This document shows, one piece after another, positions 12,188 through 46,246 of a stretch of DNA of 55,213 nt. The notes under the pieces are model-generated. The model was not told the origin of the DNA. It did no database searches and saw only the letters and a list, made by a program, of their open reading frames with translations. This DNA is from an uncultured Phocaeicola sp. Lineage in GTDB: Bacteria; Bacteroidota; Bacteroidia; Bacteroidales; Bacteroidaceae. The stretch is from positions 1 through 55,213 of the forward strand of contig CALUGI010000022.1 of assembly GCA_944320135.1 (NCBI GenBank), in the 5' to 3' direction. Position 1 is the stretch's first letter, and each line of letters opens with the position of its first letter. The translations under genes were made by a program, and so were the position numbers.

Positions 12188-12259
12188 GGTTCCTTGGATG
12201 AGTGGCTTAGTCAACGGTCTGCAAAACCGTCTACGGCGGTTCGAATCCGCCAGGAACCT
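12188..12259 (+). tRNA. tRNA-Cys (GCA), copy 1
   Basis: A 72-nt cloverleaf: acceptor GGTTCCT/AGGAACC, anticodon stem ACGGT/ACCGT with loop CTGCAAA (anticodon GCA), T arm GGCGG-TTCGAAT-CCGCC, and discriminator T as usual for Cys. CCA is not encoded. Confidence 0.95.
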
Positions 12260-12284
12260 CTCGGAAGCGTCGGCGTTCTCTTTC

Positions 12285-12356
12285 GGTTCCTTGGATGAGT
12301 GGCTTAGTCAACGGTCTGCAAAACCGTCTACGGCGGTTCGAATCCGCCAGGAACCT
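12285..12356 (+). tRNA. tRNA-Cys (GCA), copy 2
   Basis: Base-for-base identical to the copy at 12188-12259 and separated from it by a 25-nt spacer. The same cloverleaf and GCA anticodon apply. A recent tandem duplication is the simplest explanation. Confidence 0.95.
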
Positions 12357-12361
12357 CCTTT

Positions 12362-12434
12362 GCACTCTTAGCTCAGTTGGTAGAGCAACTGACTCTTAAT
12401 CAGTGGGTCCAGGGTTCGAATCCCTGAGGGTGTA
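12362..12434 (+). tRNA. tRNA-Lys (CTT)
   Basis: A 73-nt cloverleaf: acceptor GCACTCT/AGGGTGT (two G-U pairs), D stem GCTC/GAGC, anticodon arm ACTGA-CTCTTAA-TCAGT giving anticodon CTT, T arm CAGGG-TTCGAAT-CCCTG, discriminator A. CCA is not encoded. It begins 5 nt after the second tRNA-Cys. Confidence 0.94.
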
Positions 12435-12465
12435 CTTTTCTACGAGAGATCATGCAGTTTATGAA

Positions 12466-35732: not shown

Positions 35733-37670
35733 ATGAAATTTGGTTTTGTAAAAGTTGCGGCGGCCGTTCCCGCGTTGAAAGTGGCCGACTGCAAGTTCAA
35801 TGCTCAAGAGACTGAAAAACTGATTGTAATAGCCGACGGAAAAGGGGTGCAGATTATCGTTTTCCCTGAACTGAACCTGACAGGCTATTCGTGCGCCGAC
35901 CTTTTCGCCCAGTCGTTGTTGCTGGAGCAGGCGGAATTTGCGCTGATGCAGGTGATGAACAATACTCGCCAACTCGACATCATTTCGATTGTAGGATTGC
36001 CTGTGTCGGCAGGCCCGTTGCTGATGAATTGTGCCGTGGTGTTCCAGAAGGGCAAGATTTTGGGAGTGGTGCCGAAGACTTATCTTCCTAACTATAAAGA
36101 GTTTTACGAGCAGCGATGGTTCGCTCCGGCTTCCGCGCTTCCCGACAAATCGACGGTGCGTCTGTGCGGCCAGTTGGCGCCGCTCACAGCGAACATCCTT
36201 TTCGACACTCCCGACGTGTGTTTCGGGGTGGAAATCTGCGAGGACGTGTGGGCGCCGATACCTCCAAGTTCGTCGTTGGCTTTGAAAGGAGCGGAAATCA
36301 TTTTCAACCTTTCTGCCGATACGGAAAACATCGGCAAGCACCGTTATCTTCGTTCGCTGCTCTCCCAGCAGTCGGCGCGCTGTCTGGCAGGATATGTGTT
36401 CGCTTCTTCCGGTTTCGGCGAGTCGACCACGGATGTGGTGTTTGCCGGCAACGGGCTGATTTATGAGAACGGAAATCTGCTGGCGGCTTCCGAACGTTTC
36501 TCGTTCAACGAGCAGTTGGTGGTGAGCGAAATCGATGTGGAGCGTTTGCGCTGCGAACGTCTGACGAACACCACCTTTGCCGCCAGCGTGCAGACCCACG
36601 GCTCTTCTCCGGCATTGCGGGTGTTTTCCGAGTTGGTGGCTTCGCGCGAACTGGCATTGAGCCGTCCTGTCGACGCGCATCCTTTCGTGCCTTCCGGCGG
36701 GAAGCAGCTTGACGAGCGTTGTGAGGAAATTTTTTCCATTCAGGTGGCGGGACTTGCCAAGCGGCTGGTGCATACGGGCTGCCAGACGGTGGTGGTGGGC
36801 ATCTCCGGAGGTTTGGACTCTACGCTTGCCTTGCTGGTCTGCGTGAAGACTTTCGACAAGTTGGGACTGCCGCGCAAGGGCATCGTGGGCATCACTATGC
36901 CCGGATTCGGCACTACCGACCGCACGTATCACAATGCCCTTTCGCTGATGGCTTCGCTGCAAGTCACTTCGAAGGAAATCAGCATCAAAGATGCTTGTAT
37001 GCAGCATTTCCAGGATATCGGACAGGACATGGCCGTGCGTGACGTGACTTACGAGAACGGTCAGGCGCGCGAACGCACGCAGGTGCTGATGGACTATGCA
37101 AACAAGACAGGGGGGCTGGTAATCGGCACGGGCGACCTTTCCGAACTGGCTTTAGGATGGGCCACTTACAACGGCGACCACATGTCGATGTATGGAGTGA
37201 ATTCCGGCATTCCGAAAACGCTGGTGCGCTATTTGGTGGGCTGGGTGGCGCAGACAGGCGTGGACACGCTTTCGCGCAACACCTTGCTCGACATCATCGA
37301 TACGCCTATCAGTCCCGAACTCATTCCTGCGGACGAAAACGGAAACATCAAGCAGAAGACCGAAGATTTGGTGGGGCCTTACGAGCTTCACGATTTCTTT
37401 CTGTATCATTTTCTGCGTTTCGGAGCGCGTCCGGCGAAGATATACTATCTGGCGGAAACCGCTTTCCGGGGCATATACGACAGCACGGCTATCAAAAAGT
37501 GGCTCACCACTTTCTTCCGCCGTTTCTTTTCGCAGCAGTTCAAGCGTTCCTGTCTGCCCGACGGACCGAAAGTGGGCTCCGTGTCGCTCAGTCCCCGTGG
37601 CGACTGGCGTATGCCGAGCGATGCCAGCGCCGCATTGTGGCTGAAAGAATGTGAAGAATTGCAGGGGTAA
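35733..37670 (+). CDS. nadE: Glutamine-dependent NAD+ synthetase
   Basis: Makes NAD+ from deamido-NAD+, ATP and glutamine, in the cytoplasm. The 645-aa protein has an N-terminal nitrilase-type glutaminase with the triad E46 ([11 protein letters not shown]), K115 ([13 protein letters not shown]) and C169 (GVEICEDVW), and a C-terminal synthetase domain with the P-loop [14 protein letters not shown] (about 362-375) and [20 protein letters not shown]. Length is usual for the two-domain form. The frame is open to 35673, but 35733 gives the family N-terminus. The methyltransferase operon follows 56 nt later on the same strand with no clear terminator between. Confidence 0.96.
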
Positions 37671-37726
37671 GCCAAGGGACAAACCGTGGCTTGCTGTCTT
37701 CTGCTTCAGCAGTTGGAACAAAAAAG

Positions 37727-39532
37727 ATGAATAACAGAACATATCAGACAGACATACAGAACATATCAGCATTGTACGAGCAGCCTTTCCCTTCTACCAG
37801 GAGCGGGGCGCTTTTCAATGCTTTTTCGTATCCGACCAAAATATCTCCTGAGGCGGAAGCCTTGTTTATCGCTTGCCATACGAAAGCGGGCGACAAGGTT
37901 CTTGATCCGTTTGGCGGAAGCGGAACGACGGGCATTGCCGCTCTCCTTTGCGACAAGCCGACGGAGAAGATGAAAGAAACGGCTTTGAAATACGGGCTGT
38001 CGCCCCAATGGGGCCCCAGACATGCCGTGGTGTACGAGATAAGCACTTCGGGGTGTCTGTTGGGCAACGTGATGTGTCATACGGGCGCAAAGGCTTTCGA
38101 GAAGGAAGCCCGGATTTTGTTGGACGAATGCCGGGAGTTTGCGGAAAGACTGTATTCCGTGCCGGACGATGAAGGGCGCGACGGGCAGGTGAGGCACATA
38201 ATCTGGTCGGACGTGCTGCTTTGCCCGCATTGCCGTCGGGAAGTCAATTATTCGGATGCGGCGGTCCGATACAATCCTTTGTCTTTTTCGGATGACGGAG
38301 CGTGTCCTCATTGCGGGGAACCGTTCAAAATTGCGGATGCGGACCGGGTGAAGGAACATTTCTTCGACCCCGTGTTGAATGCCGGGCTCATGAGGAAAAA
38401 AAGAGTGCCTTTCAAGATATATGGTACAACCGGAAAAAGAAAATGGCAAAGGGCCGCAAACGAGGAAGACGCTGCGCGGTATCGGGAACTGGAGTCCGCC
38501 CTCGACTATTCGCAGGTGCCGGAAGAGCGGATTCGGTGGGGGGAGCTGTATCGTCAGGGCTACCATTATGGAATCACTCACATCCATCATTTCTACACTT
38601 CGCGCAATGCAGTTATGTTTGCATACCTGTGGAACAGCGTAGGAAGGCGGAACAAGGCACTGCAGGACGCTCTGAGGATATTCCTTCTCAGTTACAATTC
38701 CTCCCATTCAACGTTGATGACAAGAGTTGTCGCGAAGAAGGGAAGCAAGGACTTTGTGCTTACCGGCGCTCAGCCGGGAGTTCTGTATATCAGCAGCCTG
38801 CCGGTAGAGAAAAATATATTTTCCGGTCTGGAACGCAAGCTGAAAACGTTTGTGGAGGCATTGTCGACAGTTGAAAAGTCGAAAAGTACGGTTGTTTTCA
38901 AAAACCTGAGCAGTACGTCCATGAGCGGCGTGGAAAACGGGAGCATAGACTATATCTTTACAGACCCCCCCTTCGGCGACTTCATTCCTTATTCTGAGGT
39001 CAATCAAATCAATGAAATATGGCTTGGACATCTGACAGACAACAGCAATGAAGCGGTGATAAACGAAGCGCAGGGAAAATCTTTCGACAATTATTCTTGT
39101 CTTATGGAGAGCGTTTTCCGCGAAATGAGCAACAAGCTGAAACCGGACGGCAGATGTACGTTGGTCTTTCATTCGGCGAAAGCGGAAATATGGAGAGCCA
39201 TTATAAAGGCATACAGGAATAACGGCTTTGCCGTAGAGCGGGCAAGCGTTTTGGACAAAGTGCAAAAAACGTTCAAACAAACCAACTCCCGTGTGACAGT
39301 GAAAGGCGACCCGATACTTCTGCTTGCAAAATCGAAGATGTCGTTTAACGGTTCGGGCTACATTTCGGACAAGCAGATTGCCGAGGCTCTTGTCGACCGT
39401 TCAAAAGATATTCCGTTCAGCAAGGAAAAGGCTTGGGCTTTGTATTCCAATTATATAACGGCGTGTGTGGAAAACGGGCTTCAGGTTTCTCTTGATGCCA
39501 AATACTTTTTCGGCAATGGCGAAAGCGAATAA
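37727..39532 (+). CDS. DNA methyltransferase-like protein with internal zinc ribbon (MTase 1)
   Basis: A 601-aa protein. The SAM-binding motif I is DPFGGSGTTGIAAL (60-73), preceded by FPSTRSGALFNAFSYPTKIS. The catalytic motif is TDPPFGDFIPY (412-422), so it should methylate an exocyclic amino group (N6-A or N4-C). Between them, two CPHC knuckles (166-169 and 193-196) form a zinc ribbon and a long helical insert spans 200-390, probably the target-recognition part. Zinc-ribbon adenine methylases (COG1743-like) are the nearest type I know. First of three overlapping genes; it overlaps MTase 2 by 17 nt. The start at 37727 was chosen over the open frame from 37691 because family-like sequence begins here. 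No promoter was found in the 56-nt gap after nadE. Confidence 0.85.
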   Translation: MNNRTYQTDIQNISALYEQPFPSTRSGALFNAFSYPTKISPEAEALFIACHTKAGDKVLDPFGGSGTTGIAALLCDKPTEKMKETALKYGLSPQWGPRHAVVYEISTSGCLLGNVMCHTGAKAFEKEARILLDECREFAERLYSVPDDEGRDGQVRHIIWSDVLLCPHCRREVNYSDAAVRYNPLSFSDDGACPHCGEPFKIADADRVKEHFFDPVLNAGLMRKKRVPFKIYGTTGKRKWQRAANEEDAARYRELESALDYSQVPEERIRWGELYRQGYHYGITHIHHFYTSRNAVMFAYLWNSVGRRNKALQDALRIFLLSYNSSHSTLMTRVVAKKGSKDFVLTGAQPGVLYISSLPVEKNIFSGLERKLKTFVEALSTVEKSKSTVVFKNLSSTSMSGVENGSIDYIFTDPPFGDFIPYSEVNQINEIWLGHLTDNSNEAVINEAQGKSFDNYSCLMESVFREMSNKLKPDGRCTLVFHSAKAEIWRAIIKAYRNNGFAVERASVLDKVQKTFKQTNSRVTVKGDPILLLAKSKMSFNGSGYISDKQIAEALVDRSKDIPFSKEKAWALYSNYITACVENGLQVSLDAKYFFGNGESE

Positions 39533-41366
39533 AGGCAAATTGTTGGGGCAAGTTTTTTCGGGCAAGCGGATTGCTTGGGCTTTGTATGATTTGTTGGGAA
39601 AGCCTGAGGGAGCGACGGTTATCGACCCGATGTGCGGGTGCGGTGATTTGCTGCAGCCGTTTTGCGGTTCGTGCAGAGTAGAAGGCGTTGAAATAGACGA
39701 GGATGTTTGCAACAGGGCAAGGGCCGAAATGGGAGGAAGCGCATCGGTCGTCTGCGGAAATGCGTTTTCGAAAGCGTCTTTGAGGAAGATGCGTCATGAC
39801 GGATACGATGTGGTTGTAACGAACCCGCCATATATACGTCGCGAAACGTATAAGCAGTCTCAGGCTCTCGTCAGAGATTTTTTGCCTGTAGGGGATATAG
39901 GGAAGAACATTCTGGAAGCAATGGATGCCATGTCTACTTTGACCTCGGAGCAAAAGGACGAAGTGGAAAGAATCGTCCGGAGCATGTCCGGACTTTCCGA
40001 TATTGCAGCCTTTTCTTGTTTGTTGTGTATGCTTCTTGTGAAACGGAATGGCCGTTTGGCGCTTGTATTGCCTGATTCTTGGCTCGGCCGTGAATATTTT
40101 GTTCCTGTAGTCCGGTTGTTGAAGAAGCTGTTTGCCATTGAATATATTGTCAGGGATGTCAATTCCGTTTGGTTCAAGGGGAAAGCCCAGGTGCGGACTT
40201 CGTTGGTTGTAGCTAAACGTGTCAATCATGTGTCAAGTACACATTCCATACTCCATGCAGACTTGTACAGAGATTCGGCCAATGATGAAACAGTTACGGC
40301 ATTCCTGCCGCAAGAAATCGCTTTTAGGGATTTCTTGGTTCGGAAGCAGTCGATTCCAAATGTTTGCGTCGTGTCTGCTGTTGAGCAAAGCCGTTTCTTG
40401 TCGGACATTTCGAGTTCTGAAATTGCTTCTCCGTTTCGTTCTTTGCTATTGGCGAATGAAGAAAATTTTGTAACTTTGTCCGACTTGGGGATTTCTTGCG
40501 GACAAGGTTTCCGGTCCGGAGCAAATGCATTTTTTATAATGGACAATTGCGGAGAAACTTGTTTGTCGAGAATCAAGGGATTCAGAGTGCCCAAAGACAA
40601 CCGTTTCATAAAGCCTATTATCCAAAACCAGAAGTCTTTGCCTTCCGGCTATACGGTTGCTGACGAAAAGTATACGCTTTCGTTGCTGTCGATAGGGCAA
40701 GGGTTTGTGACGGACGAAGATTACGAGTCGGTCTGCAAGCCTTGTCGCGTTTTCTTTTCGCGTTTGCCGCAAGAATATCAGGAATATATCCGTCTTGCCG
40801 AGCGGGAGGATGTTAGAGGGAAGAAGATACCTTCTTTGTCAGCAGTAAAGACCAATGTGCGAGGCGCGGGTAAAGACGAATGTTTTTGGTATACATTGCC
40901 ATCGTTCACCGACAGACATACGGGAAAAGTCTTTATGCCGAGAGTAAACGGCGGAAAGGTTCTGGCAAGATACAATCCGCGCGGTTACATTGTTGATGCG
41001 AATTTCATTTCTTTTTGGAGCAGTGAACATTCTTCTTTAACGGAGGAAGGGCTGCTTGCGCTGTTGAACAGCGTGTGGGCAAGTGTCTTTTGCGAAGAGT
41101 TCGGGATAGTGATGGGGGGAGGTGCGCTGAAACTGGATGCCGTTCAAGTAAGGAAACTGCCTGTCCCGTTGTTGGACGACAACTGTATGGCCTCTCTTGG
41201 TGAGCTTGGGAAGCGGTTGGCTGAAGCGGACATCCCAGATTCCCGGATTATAAAGAGAATCGATGAAATTATAATAGGGCGTATGGATGCTGCTTGCGGG
41301 CTTGACGCCATGATAGAGAAACTTTATTCGATAGAATCCGAATATATTAACAGACGAACAAAATGA
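39516..41366 (+). CDS. N6-adenine DNA methyltransferase, Eco57I/TaqI-like (MTase 2)
   Basis: A 616-aa protein. It begins with KLLGQVFSGKRIAWALYDLL, then motif I VIDPMCGCGDLLQPF (35-49), GVEIDEDVCNRA (57-68) and the catalytic VVTNPPYIRRE (100-110), all typical gamma-class N6-adenine methylases. After VLPDSWLGREYFVPV comes a C-terminal specificity-like domain ending GIVMGGGALKLDAVQVRKLP, the TaqI-C pattern. There is no nuclease motif. Starts at 39495 and 39465 are in frame but extend into MTase 1; 39516 keeps a 17-nt overlap. Its stop overlaps the ATG of MTase 3 (ATGA). As a unit with its neighbours it may provide one of several methylation specificities. Confidence 0.88.
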   Translation: MAKANKGKLLGQVFSGKRIAWALYDLLGKPEGATVIDPMCGCGDLLQPFCGSCRVEGVEIDEDVCNRARAEMGGSASVVCGNAFSKASLRKMRHDGYDVVVTNPPYIRRETYKQSQALVRDFLPVGDIGKNILEAMDAMSTLTSEQKDEVERIVRSMSGLSDIAAFSCLLCMLLVKRNGRLALVLPDSWLGREYFVPVVRLLKKLFAIEYIVRDVNSVWFKGKAQVRTSLVVAKRVNHVSSTHSILHADLYRDSANDETVTAFLPQEIAFRDFLVRKQSIPNVCVVSAVEQSRFLSDISSSEIASPFRSLLLANEENFVTLSDLGISCGQGFRSGANAFFIMDNCGETCLSRIKGFRVPKDNRFIKPIIQNQKSLPSGYTVADEKYTLSLLSIGQGFVTDEDYESVCKPCRVFFSRLPQEYQEYIRLAEREDVRGKKIPSLSAVKTNVRGAGKDECFWYTLPSFTDRHTGKVFMPRVNGGKVLARYNPRGYIVDANFISFWSSEHSSLTEEGLLALLNSVWASVFCEEFGIVMGGGALKLDAVQVRKLPVPLLDDNCMASLGELGKRLAEADIPDSRIIKRIDEIIIGRMDAACGLDAMIEKLYSIESEYINRRTK

Positions 41367-44300
41367 GCCGGATAGAGACTGCAAAATGCTTTATAGAGAA
41401 AGCGCTTGAGCTCATGGCCGAACGTGCCAGCGAGGTGCGGGTAAGGGATAATTTTACTTCTTATTTGCGCGGCATGTATCCCGACAATCCCAAGTGGGTG
41501 AGTTATCACATAGACGGTGCCGAGAGGCATGTCCATCTTGTTCGCAACAATCGAAGCATATCAGGATTCATTGACAATTGCATCGACTGCATTGCTATTG
41601 AGTATGAAAAGAATCTCTCCGTTCCTGCTGTTTATGAAGAGGGATTTCGGCAAGTGAAGGAGTATTGCGCGGCGTTGGTGCGTGAAGGTATTCCTGTAGG
41701 GATGATACAGGGTGTCCTTTCGGATACGTTGAACTGGAAAGTGTTCGAGGTTGTGCCTGACGATTTGTTGGATGCCGGAGAATATTCTCAGGAGAATATA
41801 GTGTTAAGAGAAGTGGCTTCCATCCATATATCCCAAAGCAGTGACAGGGAGGCGTCAGACTTGTTGCTTTTTCTCCAAACTTATCTTGGACGTATAGGAG
41901 GGCGTCGCATTACGGCCCGCAGGTTGGCGGATGATTTTGGCCTTAAAAGCGGATATAGCAGGATTTACCGCGAAGCCATACGAGGGTATGTCGAGCGCAA
42001 GAAATGTGAAAATCCGCAATATTACAAGATGATAGGGGCGTTATGGACGAAATTTGTCGATGGCCATAGCGGTCTTTCTGGCAATGATGATTCATACATA
42101 AGCGAATTTTATATTTCTATTGTCGCCAAGATATTGTGCGCTAACCTTGTGTCTAAACGTGCGCTTTCTTCAACGCCCGAAGAATTGTGCGATATTGTCA
42201 ACGGAAGATATTTTGAGAATAAAAACATAGAGAACTTTGTAGACTATGACTATTTCGGGTGGCTGAATGCAGATGCCGGCGAATTGGCCGACACGTTGCG
42301 CCGGATTCAGGACGACTTGAAGGTGTATGACTTCGAAGCGATGCCGGAAGAAGACATGTTCGGAGAGCTTATGGTGCAGTTGTCAGACAGGACGCAAAGA
42401 ATCTTGCTCGGTCAGGAACTGACTCCGAGATGGTTGGCTAAGCAGCTGGTCGGGAAAGTGATAAGCGGGCTGGACGGACAAGACACTCCCCGGTTTGTTG
42501 ACATGTGCTGCGGTTCCGGCTCTATGATTGTAGAGACTATCCGGCAAACCGACGCTATGCTGTCGCGCGATATGCCTCCGGGAAAGAGAAGTCGGATTCT
42601 TGTGGATTGCATTTCGGGGTTTGACATAGACCCGCTGGCTGTCATTCTGTCGAAGATAAATTGGTTGGTGACCATTTACGGAAGGATAGACCGTTCGTGC
42701 CCGATTTTTATCCCTATTTATCATGCCGATTCCTTGTTTGCGGAGAATTTGATGGGTCGCACGCGCGAAGGCAAAACGGCGCTCAGGCTTTTTGACAAGC
42801 TCGTAGAAGTGCCAAGCTGTGTCATTTCCGTCGGTTGCCACAACGTGTTTGATATGATAGTCGACAAATGTTATGATTATATCCATATCAAAGTAGAGGA
42901 AAGGGACTTTATGGATGCGATGCGTTCTTCGTTGGCTTCTGCTGTCCCCGACATAAGCAAGCTCGATGATGTATGCAAGTTTTCATACAGCCTTTATAAA
43001 GCCTTGTTCCAGCTCAACGCTGAGGGGCGAAACGGAATATGGGCATTTGTCTTGAAGAATTTGCTGAGGCCGAACCTCATACGGGGACGATACAACGGAA
43101 TCGTTTCCAACACTCCTTGGCTGGCCATGAGCAAGATTGGTTCCAATCCATATAAGGATTCGTTAAGAACGATGGCAAAGCATTTGGGCATCAACCCCAC
43201 TGACTCCAGTTTCCTGCATTTGGAACTGGCAACGGTATTTCTTCTGAACTCGATAGACAAGTATCTTTGTCCGGGCGGACTTTTCGGCTGCATTTTGCCC
43301 GATTCGGTGATGACGGGCAAGCAGCATGAAAAATTCAGAGACGGCCGTTTTGCAAAGAAGCGCGTAGAAGCCGGTTTCTATGAAATATGGGAGTTGCCGA
43401 CTGATACGTTCAAGAACAGGGGCATTGCGCTTTTCGGAAGGAAAGAGCCTTATAGAAAGAAGCCGTTCTATCCCGGCAGGCGTTACAGGAGTAAGGACGA
43501 ATATTCCGCGACCCGCTTTTCCGTGGTCGGCAGTCAAAACCGGACGGTCTGGACAGACGCTGCGGCTTCCGATGGAATCGCGGGCGGAAACAGATACAAA
43601 TTCAAGCAAGGAGCGGACGTAATGCCGCGATGTTTTTATTTCTTTACGATGACGGAGGAAAAGGGAGGCGGGACAAGGCTGTCTTCGATTCGTGAGGGCG
43701 ACAAATATTCTTATTTACTGAATGGCATGAAAAAGGGGAAGATGCTCTTTTATGAGTGCTGCGGAGTTCCGCCGTCTCTCGTAAAGTCTGTGCTTGTATC
43801 GAGCGTGCTTACTCCTTTTCGCATAACCGAGCCTCCGCAGGCGGTGCTGCCGATTGAAAGGAAGGATGGGGAGTGGGGCGAAATCGGCCCTGTTGCGCAG
43901 CTGTCCTATCCCCGGTCTTTTATCAATCTGATGGCAGCTATAAGGAGGGATTACAAGGCCGTCGCTTCGAACTCTTCGATGTTTGACCGCACCTTGAACA
44001 TGCGCAACAAGCTGAAGCTGCAAAAGTTTGAGACCGGACAGTATCTTGTCCTCTACGGAGCGGGAGGAGCGAACATTTGTTCCGCCTGCCTGAAGATTGG
44101 CGATGCGGACAAACTGGTCGTCGATCAGACGCTATATTGGACAACTGTGCCCTCTGAAGACGAAGCCATGTACCTGAGCGGGATGCTCAATTGCCCGCTT
44201 CTTAATGAAATCATTTCTGCATTTCAAACGCAAGGGGCGTTCGGAAAACGGCACGTGCATACGTTGCCGCTCAGCTATATACCTCGCTTTGACCCAAATG

Positions 44301-44521
44301 ACGGGATTATGGATTCGTTTGTACAAACTGTTTATAGCTTGTGCTCGGAGCTGGGAAAAGCCATAAGCGTGCATGAACTGAATCCGAACGCGGCGACGCT
44401 TGTCAGCAGAAGAAGGAAAGTCGTTAGAGCGATGCAAAACATGCCTTCTTATGCGGGCTATGTGGAATTTTGCAAGAAGATACTTGCAAGAAGTGCAGGC
44501 AAGGCGGACGAATGTTTCTGA
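41363..44521 (+). CDS. Large methyltransferase with nuclease-like N-terminus (MTase 3)
   Basis: A 1052-aa protein. Residues 1-130 resemble PD-(D/E)XK nucleases: SGFIDNCIDCIAIEYEKNLS (67-86) then QVKEYCAALVREGIPVG; the core reads E80-x-E-K83 with D71 before it, so the Lys is one place later than in a standard ExK. The middle holds motif I VDMCCGSGSMIVE (379-391), GFDIDPLAV (419-427) and a catalytic motif SNTPWLAMSKI (582-592) with Thr where NPPW is usual. LPDSVMTGKQHEKFRDG and a C-terminal recognition region follow. The layout (nuclease-like, methylase, specificity) recalls type IIG enzymes or PglX-like methylases. Last gene of the trio; it ends 31 nt from the convergent hydrolase gene. Activity of either domain is uncertain. 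Confidence 0.85.
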   Translation: MSRIETAKCFIEKALELMAERASEVRVRDNFTSYLRGMYPDNPKWVSYHIDGAERHVHLVRNNRSISGFIDNCIDCIAIEYEKNLSVPAVYEEGFRQVKEYCAALVREGIPVGMIQGVLSDTLNWKVFEVVPDDLLDAGEYSQENIVLREVASIHISQSSDREASDLLLFLQTYLGRIGGRRITARRLADDFGLKSGYSRIYREAIRGYVERKKCENPQYYKMIGALWTKFVDGHSGLSGNDDSYISEFYISIVAKILCANLVSKRALSSTPEELCDIVNGRYFENKNIENFVDYDYFGWLNADAGELADTLRRIQDDLKVYDFEAMPEEDMFGELMVQLSDRTQRILLGQELTPRWLAKQLVGKVISGLDGQDTPRFVDMCCGSGSMIVETIRQTDAMLSRDMPPGKRSRILVDCISGFDIDPLAVILSKINWLVTIYGRIDRSCPIFIPIYHADSLFAENLMGRTREGKTALRLFDKLVEVPSCVISVGCHNVFDMIVDKCYDYIHIKVEERDFMDAMRSSLASAVPDISKLDDVCKFSYSLYKALFQLNAEGRNGIWAFVLKNLLRPNLIRGRYNGIVSNTPWLAMSKIGSNPYKDSLRTMAKHLGINPTDSSFLHLELATVFLLNSIDKYLCPGGLFGCILPDSVMTGKQHEKFRDGRFAKKRVEAGFYEIWELPTDTFKNRGIALFGRKEPYRKKPFYPGRRYRSKDEYSATRFSVVGSQNRTVWTDAAASDGIAGGNRYKFKQGADVMPRCFYFFTMTEEKGGGTRLSSIREGDKYSYLLNGMKKGKMLFYECCGVPPSLVKSVLVSSVLTPFRITEPPQAVLPIERKDGEWGEIGPVAQLSYPRSFINLMAAIRRDYKAVASNSSMFDRTLNMRNKLKLQKFETGQYLVLYGAGGANICSACLKIGDADKLVVDQTLYWTTVPSEDEAMYLSGMLNCPLLNEIISAFQTQGAFGKRHVHTLPLSYIPRFDPNDGIMDSFVQTVYSLCSELGKAISVHELNPNAATLVSRRRKVVRAMQNMPSYAGYVEFCKKILARSAGKADECF

Positions 44522-44552: not shown

Positions 44553-45497
44553 CTATTCTATCCATCTGTCTGTAAATTCCTTTACTCTCCGGGTATATTC
44601 TTCGGGGAAGTTCTTGTATGCCACTGCATGTTCCGTGTCGGGAACAATCCACAGTTCTTTGGGCGACGGTTTGGCTTCATAAAGCGGATAGACCATCCAT
44701 GTGGGCACATAGTCGTCTTCCTTGCCGTGGATGAACAACATCGGTCTCTTGCATTTGGCCACTTGTTCCAATGCAGACGCTTCGCGGAAGTCCCATCCGT
44801 ATTTCAAGTTGCAGAGCCAGCTGGCTGCGTGCAGCAGGGGGAACGGGGGAAGATGGAACTGCGTTTGCAATTCTTTCTTGAACTCGTCCCATACGCTGGT
44901 ATAGCCGCAGTCGTCCACAAAACAGCTCACGTATGCAGGAAGCCGTTCGCCCGACACCATCATCGTTGTGGCTCCGCCCATTGATATGCCGTGTACCACC
45001 ATCCGGAGAGAATCGCCGAATATGGAGGGGGCAAGGCCGATCCATTGCATTACGTCCATCCGGTCGAGCCAGCCCATCTGGATAGCTTCGCCTTCGCTTT
45101 GTCCTGCATGTCGCAAGTCGGGCATCAGAATATTGCAGTCGAGCGAACGGTTGTACATGTATCCGATGTGGAGCATGTCGGCGGCTCGGTTTCCGTAGCC
45201 GTGGATAACCAACGCCGTTTTGCGTGTCGGACGCGCGGCATACGCATAGAAAGCGTGGAGAGACGTTCCGTCGGACGCCGTAATGAATGTGTCTTTCAGT
45301 GCCTTGTGGGTTTGCAGGCTGTCTATCCATGAAGTGATGTACGGATAGTCTTTGCATGTTTCGGCTATTGCCTCCTGTACGTCGAGCTTCGGGCGGTCAG
45401 GACGGAGGGCGTAGTCAATCAGATAAAGTCCCCCTCCGATTGTCATGGCCGTCAATGCCAGCAGGATGCCGGCTCCTGCCAAAAGAATCTTTTTCAT
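44553..45497 (-). CDS. Alpha/beta hydrolase, membrane-anchored
   Basis: A 314-aa protein with an N-terminal hydrophobic helix (KKILLAGAGILLALTAMTIG), probably a membrane anchor or uncleaved signal, followed by an alpha/beta-hydrolase domain. The nucleophile elbow is MVVHGISMGGATTMM (Ser), the oxyanion region KTALVIHGYGNRAADML, and an Asp/His pair is likely in HGKEDDYVP and DTEHAVAYKN. The substrate is unknown; it resembles YqkD-type hydrolases. The frame is open to 45524, overlapping aroE, but MKKILLAG at 45497 is the natural start. Last gene of phoH-purC-menG-aroE-hydrolase. Confidence 0.87.
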   Translation of the reverse strand: MKKILLAGAGILLALTAMTIGGGLYLIDYALRPDRPKLDVQEAIAETCKDYPYITSWIDSLQTHKALKDTFITASDGTSLHAFYAYAARPTRKTALVIHGYGNRAADMLHIGYMYNRSLDCNILMPDLRHAGQSEGEAIQMGWLDRMDVMQWIGLAPSIFGDSLRMVVHGISMGGATTMMVSGERLPAYVSCFVDDCGYTSVWDEFKKELQTQFHLPPFPLLHAASWLCNLKYGWDFREASALEQVAKCKRPMLFIHGKEDDYVPTWMVYPLYEAKPSPKELWIVPDTEHAVAYKNFPEEYTRRVKEFTDRWIE

Positions 45498-45502
45498 ACG
45501 AG

Positions 45503-46246
45503 TTATCTGTTCCAAATGTCCCATGACGCGAATGCCTGGAGCAGAAGCATCTCCAGCCCGTTTTTAACGATAGCTCCCCGGTCGCTTCCCTTTTTCATGA
45601 AGAGCGTCGTGTCGGGATTGTAGAGCAAGTCGTAGAGCAGATGCTGCGTAGTGAGCAGGTCGTAGGGTATCTGGGGGCACTTGTCGGCCTGCGGATACAT
45701 GCCTACCGGGGTACAGTTGACGATTACCTTGTAGTCGTTCATGATTTGAGGGGTCAGTTCTTCATAAGTGACGGTCGTGTCATTATGCTTTCCCCGCGAG
45801 ACGAACAGCGTTTCAAGCCCCAGTTGGACAAGCCCCTCGCGAATAGCTTTTGAAGCGCCTCCCGTTCCGAGAATCAGCGCCTTCTTGTGGTATGGTTCCA
45901 ATAGCGGCTCGATGGATTGCGTGAACCCGATGATGTCCGAGTTGTATCCGGTGAGTTTCACCTTTCCTTTTGCGCGTTCAATCTTGATTACGTTTACCGC
46001 TCCGATGGCTGCGGCCGTGTCGTCCAGCTTGTCGAGATAGGAAATGACCTTTTCCTTGTAGGGGATGGTGACGTTGAGCCCTTCCAGATTCGGGTTGTTT
46101 GCGATTACTTTAGGAAGCTCGTCAATGGACGGGATTTCAAAGTTTACATATTCGGCATCGATGCTTTCAGAATGGAATTTCTCATTGAAGAAGTTTTTCG
46201 AGAAAGAATGGCCGAGAGGATAACCGATTAAACCGTATTTTTTCAT
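45503..46246 (-). CDS. aroE: Shikimate dehydrogenase
   Basis: Reduces 3-dehydroshikimate to shikimate with NADPH for aromatic amino acids. The 247-aa protein begins MKKYGLIGYPLGHSFSKNFF (substrate Ser residues in GHSFSK), has NVTIPYKEKVISYLD (catalytic Lys), and the nucleotide-binding LILGTGGASKAIREGLVQLG. The C-terminus GLEMLLLQAFASWDIWN is typical. Length is slightly short, as in Bacteroidetes. It lies 12 nt after menG and 5 nt before the hydrolase start, so it is in the same transcript. Confidence 0.95.
   Translation of the reverse strand: MKKYGLIGYPLGHSFSKNFFNEKFHSESIDAEYVNFEIPSIDELPKVIANNPNLEGLNVTIPYKEKVISYLDKLDDTAAAIGAVNVIKIERAKGKVKLTGYNSDIIGFTQSIEPLLEPYHKKALILGTGGASKAIREGLVQLGLETLFVSRGKHNDTTVTYEELTPQIMNDYKVIVNCTPVGMYPQADKCPQIPYDLLTTQHLLYDLLYNPDTTLFMKKGSDRGAIVKNGLEMLLLQAFASWDIWNR

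Follow-up and report, generated by a model that had tools for sequence, protein, structure and literature searches.

Type IIG restriction enzymes, of which MmeI is the prototype, are defined by a single recognition domain that serves the whole system (PMC4752239). In Type IIS systems an asymmetric site can be covered by a pair of methylases (PMC12707154), as in BtsI, where each strand has its own (PMC2909958). In the BREX-3 methyltransferase BrxXI a core is combined with a large insert, which holds a four-cysteine zinc finger, and with a C-terminal helix-turn-helix region (PMC12839542). Within a 55,213-nt stretch of DNA (the window) from contig CALUGI010000022.1 of an uncultured Phocaeicola sp. 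(assembly GCA_944320135.1), three consecutive genes, named here p1, p2 and p3, were compared with these systems. The original prediction for this DNA had held that the trio matches nothing described, which does not stand given that p1 resembles BrxXI, p2 the Eco57I/TaqI methylases and p3 Type IIG enzymes, and that a nuclease with two methylases has a Type IIS precedent. Its statement that known loci normally carry one methylase each was too strong for Type II systems, as BtsI carries two (PMC2909958).

Judged from their sequences, p1, p2 and p3 are three distinct adenine-type DNA methyltransferases, and the evidence leans modestly towards the trio being a compact, self-contained, horizontally mobile three-protein Type II-like restriction-modification cassette derived from a Type IIG-like enzyme. 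In this cassette p3 would recognise DNA via its C-terminal region, methylate adenine through its central domain and use an N-terminal nuclease of PD-(D/E)XK type to cut DNA that lacks modification. The p1 and p2 proteins, each with a recognition region of its own, would add further protective adenine marks to host DNA; in the simplest case these would lie on the strand, or on the site variants, left unmarked by p3. The reading is built on the directly observed gene order, homology, active-site motifs, co-inheritance, insertion, and mobile and defence contexts; that p3 cuts DNA, that all three proteins methylate one and the same site and that the trio acts against phages are presumed in it. That p3 is the effector, as originally proposed, is likely.

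The p3 protein has full-length relatives and matched the PADLOC model REase_MTase_IIG (PDLC03630) with an E value of 4.5e-51. A profile of seven p3 proteins found M.BseCI (E 1.4e-4) and, weakly, RM.BsaXI (0.03) and BrxX (0.07). An N-terminal nuclease-type region, a central methyltransferase and a C-terminal recognition region follow one another in p3, the part order of MmeI (N-terminal D...Ex(E/K), adenine methylase, C-terminal recognition; PMC4752239). Of the one-polypeptide Type IIG fusion, the methylase and the motif order were confirmed in p3, while of the nuclease only a conserved D...ExE...Q motif was seen. These D, ExE and Q residues are kept within the first 100 residues of p3 in all nine trios, and most other p3 homologues possess D...ExE or D...ExK at the equivalent place, followed by Q. 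On this motif argument the p3 N-terminus is likely a PD-(D/E)XK nuclease such as Type IIG enzymes carry in fusion. Unlike Type IIG enzymes, p3 of the trios groups apart from its other relatives, carries DMCCGSG and sometimes NTPW, and is accompanied by p2 and, contig permitting, p1. The exchange of NPPW for NTPW might weaken the methylase of p3 itself and leave protection to p1 and p2, which may therefore carry more of it in the window copy; since the other seven trio copies have NPPW, NTPW cannot be the general reason for the extra methylases. Apart from NTPW in two copies, the active-site motifs are kept in all copies compared.

In Pfam, p2 matched Eco57I (E 8e-8) and, at 23.0 bits and under the 26.5 cut-off, TaqI_C (E 1e-4). 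When an eight-protein p2 profile was compared with solved structures, M.BseCI (7qw5, E 5.4e-11) and M.TaqI (2ibs, E 1e-4) were found. From these matches p2 is predicted to be a gamma-type N6-adenine methyltransferase with a TaqI-like C-terminal recognition region. It shares the motif order and this C-terminal region with M.BseCI and M.TaqI, but in contrast to the case of the Eco57I/TaqI methylases, the libraries scanned contain no family dedicated to it.

The p1 protein matched PADLOC PglXI (E 2.1e-111), covering positions 111-627 of the 919 in the profile, and p1 also matches Pfam N6_N4_Mtase. Its order of motif I, zinc-ribbon insert and DPPF is the architecture described for BREX-3 BrxXI (PMC12839542), and p1 is accordingly classed, on homology and motifs, as a BrxXI/PglXI-like adenine methyltransferase core with a zinc-ribbon insert that lacks the C-terminal region of BREX-3 BrxXI. 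The p1 proteins of the trios are 585-625 residues long, against 803-936 for six longer BrxXI-like proteins; the compared set also held two shorter ones (646 and 517 residues) and a 592-residue relative on a Paenarthrobacter plasmid, upstream of which there is no trio and downstream of which the record ends. One-letter changes in p1 motif I were seen in three viral contigs (L063, L065, L068). The p1 of a Hymenobacter plasmid, which is frameshifted, and the p1 pieces of contigs L066 and L069 were left out of all p1 comparisons. Homologues of p1 lie in annotated BREX-3 loci on plasmids of Roseicitreum (31% identical) and Enterococcus faecium (25%). On a viral contig (L064:7869-12999), an 803-residue BrxXI-like methylase is followed by an 828-residue Type I-like methylase/specificity fusion, a further methylase pair of unusual make-up carried by a mobile element.

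The earlier description of three overlapping methyltransferase-like genes, with DPPF and a zinc ribbon in p1, NPPY and a TaqI-type end in p2 and NTPW in p3, was borne out by open reading frames (ORFs), motifs and library matches far above chance. The p2 and p3 genes overlap by 4 nt, and p1 and p2 by 17 nt if p2 begins at ATG 39516. This start leaves nine p2 residues ahead of an LGQ motif; the p2 start lies 6-9 residues ahead of LGQ in loci L026, L065, L066 and L068, and further upstream in other copies.

Table 1. Position of the three genes, their motifs and the inserted segment within the window.
Feature	Position	Strand	Detail
p1	37727..39532	+	ATG 37727; 601 residues; from the ORF list; reading frame open from TTG 37691
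p1 motif I FGGSGTTG (S-adenosylmethionine binding)	37910..37933	+	Full DPFGGSGTTG; residue 62; 8/8 trio p1 compared
p1 zinc-ribbon cysteines C166, C169, C193, C196	38222..38314	+	In recognition insert; 8/8 trio p1 compared
p1 catalytic motif IV DPPF	38963..38974	+	Residue 413; 8/8 trio p1 compared
p2	39516..41366	+	616 residues from ATG 39516, or 623 from ATG 39495; frame open from GTG 39465
p2 motif I DPMCGCGDL	39624..39650	+	D-x-M-x-G-x-G-D-(L/M) in 10/10 p2 compared, L026 included
p2 catalytic motif IV NPPY	39822..39833	+	10/10 p2 compared
p3	41363..44521	+	ATG 41363; 1052 residues; Type IIG-like
p3 putative PD-(D/E)XK residues D71, E80, E82 (then Q97)	41573..41608	+	Conserved motif
p3 motif I DMCCGSG (DMCCGSGSM)	42500..42520	+	9/9 trio p3; other homologues mostly DPACGSG
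p3 motif IV NTPW	43109..43120	+	NTPW limited to the window and G062; NPPW in 7/9 trios
Inserted segment	37671..44568		Absent in relatives; right edge uncertain, 44568-44646

The trio, in identical order and on one strand, is present in nine loci, those being the window and eight others. Its carriers are distantly related bacteria, and the DNA that bears it is chromosomal, plasmid or phage-like. A related genome (G062, contig 27) carries p1, p2 and p3 with 57%, 37% and 43% identity to the window proteins and a Mob_Pre-type gene beyond p1. The plasmid of Hymenobacter cellulosilyticus (NZ_CP095047.1) carries p1 (about 49%, in two frames), p2 (32%) and p3 (36%), with p1 and p3 annotated in the record as hypothetical proteins. 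Six contigs of the viral database IMG/VR (L063, L065, L066, L067, L068 and L070) complete the set, p1 of L066 being cut by the contig end; a further contig, L069, has p1 and p2 at its end. The window, G062 and Hymenobacter loci were reached by the p3 query, and the six viral loci via p1 or p2 profiles. Wherever a trio-type p3 occurs (9/9 loci), p2 adjoins it, and because L067/L070 and L065/L068 are near-duplicates the number of independent lineages of the p2-p3 pair is about seven. Between window p2 and the p2 proteins of other trios the identity is 30-37%. Gene spacing, measured in five copies, ranges from overlap to gaps of no more than about 20 nt. In the Hymenobacter plasmid p1 is split into two frames (L053:8071-9866) by a real frameshift or a sequencing error, with p2 and p3 intact.

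Pairwise identities among the trio proteins rise and fall together, with correlations of r 0.95 for p2-p3 (1 of 5040 permutations as high), 0.91 for p1-p3 (1 of 120) and 0.86 for p1-p2 (30 of 720); the test used small numbers, 5-7 loci, with the near-duplicates L068 and L070 left out. Recurrence of the trio in eight other loci, with its proteins diverging in step, led us to reject chance adjacency, and from this co-inheritance we infer that p1, p2 and p3 belong to one system. In this way the proposal of a real recurrent unit was upheld, the co-occurrence check having found the trio in eight further loci and in mobile contexts. In the p3 tree the nine trio proteins are split from 19 other relatives, and in the p1 tree eight are split from nine others, BREX-type methylases among them, each with branch support of 100/100; with midpoint roots and some long rows, these groups are therefore sides of a branch and not proven clades. 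The p3 tree was built without a duplicate (L046 = L056) and three short rows (L045, L050, L059).

The most trio-specific protein is p2, which is almost confined to trios in the samples searched. At E 1e-20 its profile matched three of 395 genomes of the phylum sample, two of them trios and the third a weak hit in a 924-residue frame (G451). Of 72,556 plasmid records p2 matched two: that with the Hymenobacter trio and, over part of its length, one from Tenericutes. With E values no higher than 1e-90, p1 was found in two of 393 genomes of the order sample, both with trios, and in one of 299 genomes from the phylum of L026, a metagenome-assembled genome labelled Clostridiales, that one being L026 itself. 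At E 0.001 p3 matched 26 of 395 phylum genomes, the two strong matches being trios and the next at E 5e-78 and 26% identity. Plasmid records matched by p3 numbered 79, and 13 of the 20 listed carry the annotation N-6 DNA methylase. Among 50,697 annotated phage records, p1 and p3 each had one match, both at about 20% identity. A single-protein p1 scan of viral contigs found no relative, and a p3 profile scan of viral contigs found none despite p3 being present in six contigs that were found by p1/p2 profiles; such a miss is therefore a limit of the tool. The p1 scan of genome contigs, subject to the same limit, returned one locus, L026. In this locus the position expected for p3 (L026:14196-17485) is taken by an array of about 3.3 kb of diverged repeats, with periods of about 240 and 330 nt, in which no ORF of at least 150 residues and no Rfam match was found.

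In the window the trio lies within a segment that is absent in relatives. In 11 of 39 genus relatives nadE and an alpha/beta-hydrolase gene converge, with 71-236 nt separating the ends of their matches; in the remainder they are far apart, on different contigs, or one was not found. About 6.9 kb separates the two genes in the window, where nucleotide homology to six of the 11 relatives ends at 37665-37671 and resumes at 44569-44646. The insert contains the trio alone, and the three genes therefore appear to be a complete transfer unit here. With a GC content of 46-54% in 1-kb windows the insert is not distinct from its flanks, so that GC content gives no mark of foreign origin, and no flanking repeat was evident among the best 20 of 29 direct-repeat families and 15 inverted pairs. 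In one relative (G025) some 30 kb lie between nadE and the hydrolase gene, and since the ORFs there look by eye like lipoproteins and transporters, an insertion hotspot is not claimed.

The left neighbour nadE ends at 37670 (Pfam NAD_synthase) and the convergent right neighbour spans 44553-45524 (Pfam Peptidase_S9). Nine more ORFs of the window are, by Pfam, metabolic, transport or regulatory (one sigma-54 activator) or of unknown family. No defence genes were found by Pfam among the neighbours scanned, and no recombinase adjoins the trio in the ORF list. With nadE, the hydrolase gene and unrelated ORFs as neighbours, the earlier observation that no helicase, restriction ATPase or S subunit stands alongside was confirmed. 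Promoter-like sites numbered 10, against 7.7 +/- 2.7 expected, with none ahead of p1. Elsewhere in the window (12188-12435), two tRNA-Cys genes and one tRNA-Lys gene stand in tandem.

It is unlikely that p3 is an ordinary self-sufficient Type IIG enzyme with which p1 and p2, as separate epigenetic or anti-restriction methylases, merely ride along. Phages often carry protective methylases, L026 has p1-p2 without p3, and neither p1 nor p2 was found around other p3 relatives in 28 loci, whose flanks mostly extended about 1.4 kb, some to 9 kb, and in some cases were ended by the contig. The sole match in these loci was a 45-residue stretch within a p3 methylase, and those of Cupriavidus and Rhizobium have another annotated methylase within about 6 kb; p3 relatives thus exist without p1 and p2, in the usual single-protein Type IIG form. 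Free riders would, however, be hard to square with p2 adjoining all nine p3 genes on the trio side of the tree, though six of these are viral loci found by p1/p2 query, with the scarcity of p2 outside trios, with the divergence of the three proteins in step, or with the close spacing of the genes.

Several features weigh against the cassette reading itself. Both p1 and p2 bring their own recognition regions, at odds with the single recognition domain of Type IIG, and for an asymmetric site two methylases, not three, would suffice. Pfam shows no nuclease domain in the N-terminus of window p3, and of eight p3 N-termini only that of a relative on a Streptomyces plasmid gave a weak MmeI_N match (E 0.01, under the cut-off). 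The Hymenobacter frameshift may mean that p1 is dispensable, unless it is a sequencing error. The L026 genome carries p1 and p2 without p3 in the rest of the locus examined, and a search of that genome for p3, run without a positive control, found none. Finally, few of the genomes in the samples searched carry the trio.

With Type IIS, as represented by the BtsI methylases M1 and M2 (PMC2909958), the trio shares one putative restriction function and two separate methylases, but the trio's restriction protein has a third methylase, its p1 is of BrxXI type, and the BtsI nuclease has two subunits. With BREX-3 (PMC12839542), p1 shares the core, the large four-cysteine zinc-finger insert and DPPF after the insert, but is without the C-terminal helix-turn-helix region of about 280-300 residues, and no other BREX gene lies in the insert. 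As regards MADS, p2 weakly resembles the methylase Mad2 (PADLOC E 5e-18); no other DISARM or MADS core gene was found in the window insert, p3 matching DrmMI at E 0.022. The match tables (in PADLOC, the best 25 for p1 and p2) held methylase-level matches of HsdM type but neither HsdR nor HsdS. BREX, DISARM, MADS and Type I membership was rejected because the other core genes of these systems are missing. No model for the three-part locus was found in the scans of Pfam, PADLOC 2.0.0 and NCBIfam 20, and no description of such a trio was found in the openly licensed literature searched. The claim that the locus lacks a named architecture was therefore right as to these libraries, although all of its parts have known relatives. 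The trio is best classed as a restriction-modification variant, not a new class, that would work like Type IIG/IIS without being an established member of either by strict definition.

Little probability attaches to a stripped-down BREX-type exclusion system, with p1 as the BREX-3 methylase and p3 blocking phage DNA without cutting. The kinship of p1 with BrxXI and its homologues in annotated BREX-3 loci speak for such a system. Against it, no PglZ, BrxC-type ATPase, BrxF or helicase (BrxHII) was found in the insert or the window neighbours scanned, trio p1 groups apart and has no BrxXI C-terminal region, and p3 retains the D, ExE and Q residues.

The surroundings of the other copies point towards defence or competition between elements. 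As a statistical test they do not count, since the loci covered were all found through the trio and only some of their neighbours were scanned. The question of whether the trio sits in defence islands was thereby answered in part, with several other copies near defence or phage genes. In Hymenobacter, ABC-three-component (ABC-3C) genes and an integrase gene lie 3' of p3, and umuD and polymerase genes followed by a Fic/VbhA pair lie 5' of p1. Contig L065 carries a DUF2326 protein and partner with weak PADLOC PDC-M68B/A matches (E 2e-7) and a phage-type DNA polymerase, L068 a McrC-family gene with an AAA partner (McrBC) and a macro-domain gene, and L066 phage capsid, protease and portal genes. 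Serine recombinases lie upstream in L063, L067 and L070. In L063 a QatC-like gene, its NCBIfam score under the cut-off, is two genes downstream of the trio; the 264-residue protein between it and p3 (L063:11335-12129) had no Pfam, PADLOC or NCBIfam match at the limits used.

Immediately 3' of p3 in L067 and L070 lies a PLD-type nuclease gene (L067:13338-14384, L070:13302-14387), 36% identical to a gene on a Methylocystis plasmid (L055:12147-13190). The latter adjoins a p3 relative, so that PLD is found beside p3 with and without the trio, and the PLD-type nuclease may serve the p3 family as an accessory effector.

Low credence is likewise given to the trio being a cassette for competition among mobile elements, with which phages or integrative elements protect their own DNA and destroy that of rivals, the chromosomal copy being a captured relic. 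The six IMG/VR contigs, among them L066 with its phage head genes, the upstream serine recombinases, the plasmid copy and the lack of a recombinase by the window copy would all suit this account, but it addresses the beneficiary and not the biochemistry, and the window copy retains its reading frames and motifs, NTPW aside. Very improbable is a Pgl-like modification-dependent system in which p3 would attack incoming or competing DNA once p1 and p2 have marked it, as in the historical three-state Pgl model (PMC12839542): surplus methylases would fit, but p3 has a methylase of its own, like self-protecting Type IIG enzymes.

A bolder reading, offered tentatively and with more doubt than belief, is that the trio represents a restriction-modification class of its own, in which three adenine methylases that differ in architecture jointly license one nuclease, self being the combination of p1, p2 and p3 marks, with the BrxXI-type p1 linking BREX and Type IIG logic. 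If this is true, a phage must gain several marks at once to escape, and three marks read together would constitute a new logic of self-recognition. More broadly, the trio shows a BREX-type methylase outside BREX and lends itself to the question of what a Type IIG-like enzyme would need two extra methylases for. The libraries scanned see it merely as unrelated methylases. With three genes in about 7 kb, no helicase or translocase, and copies in chromosomes, a plasmid and phage-like contigs, such a cassette would amount to a minimal restriction unit capable of transfer.

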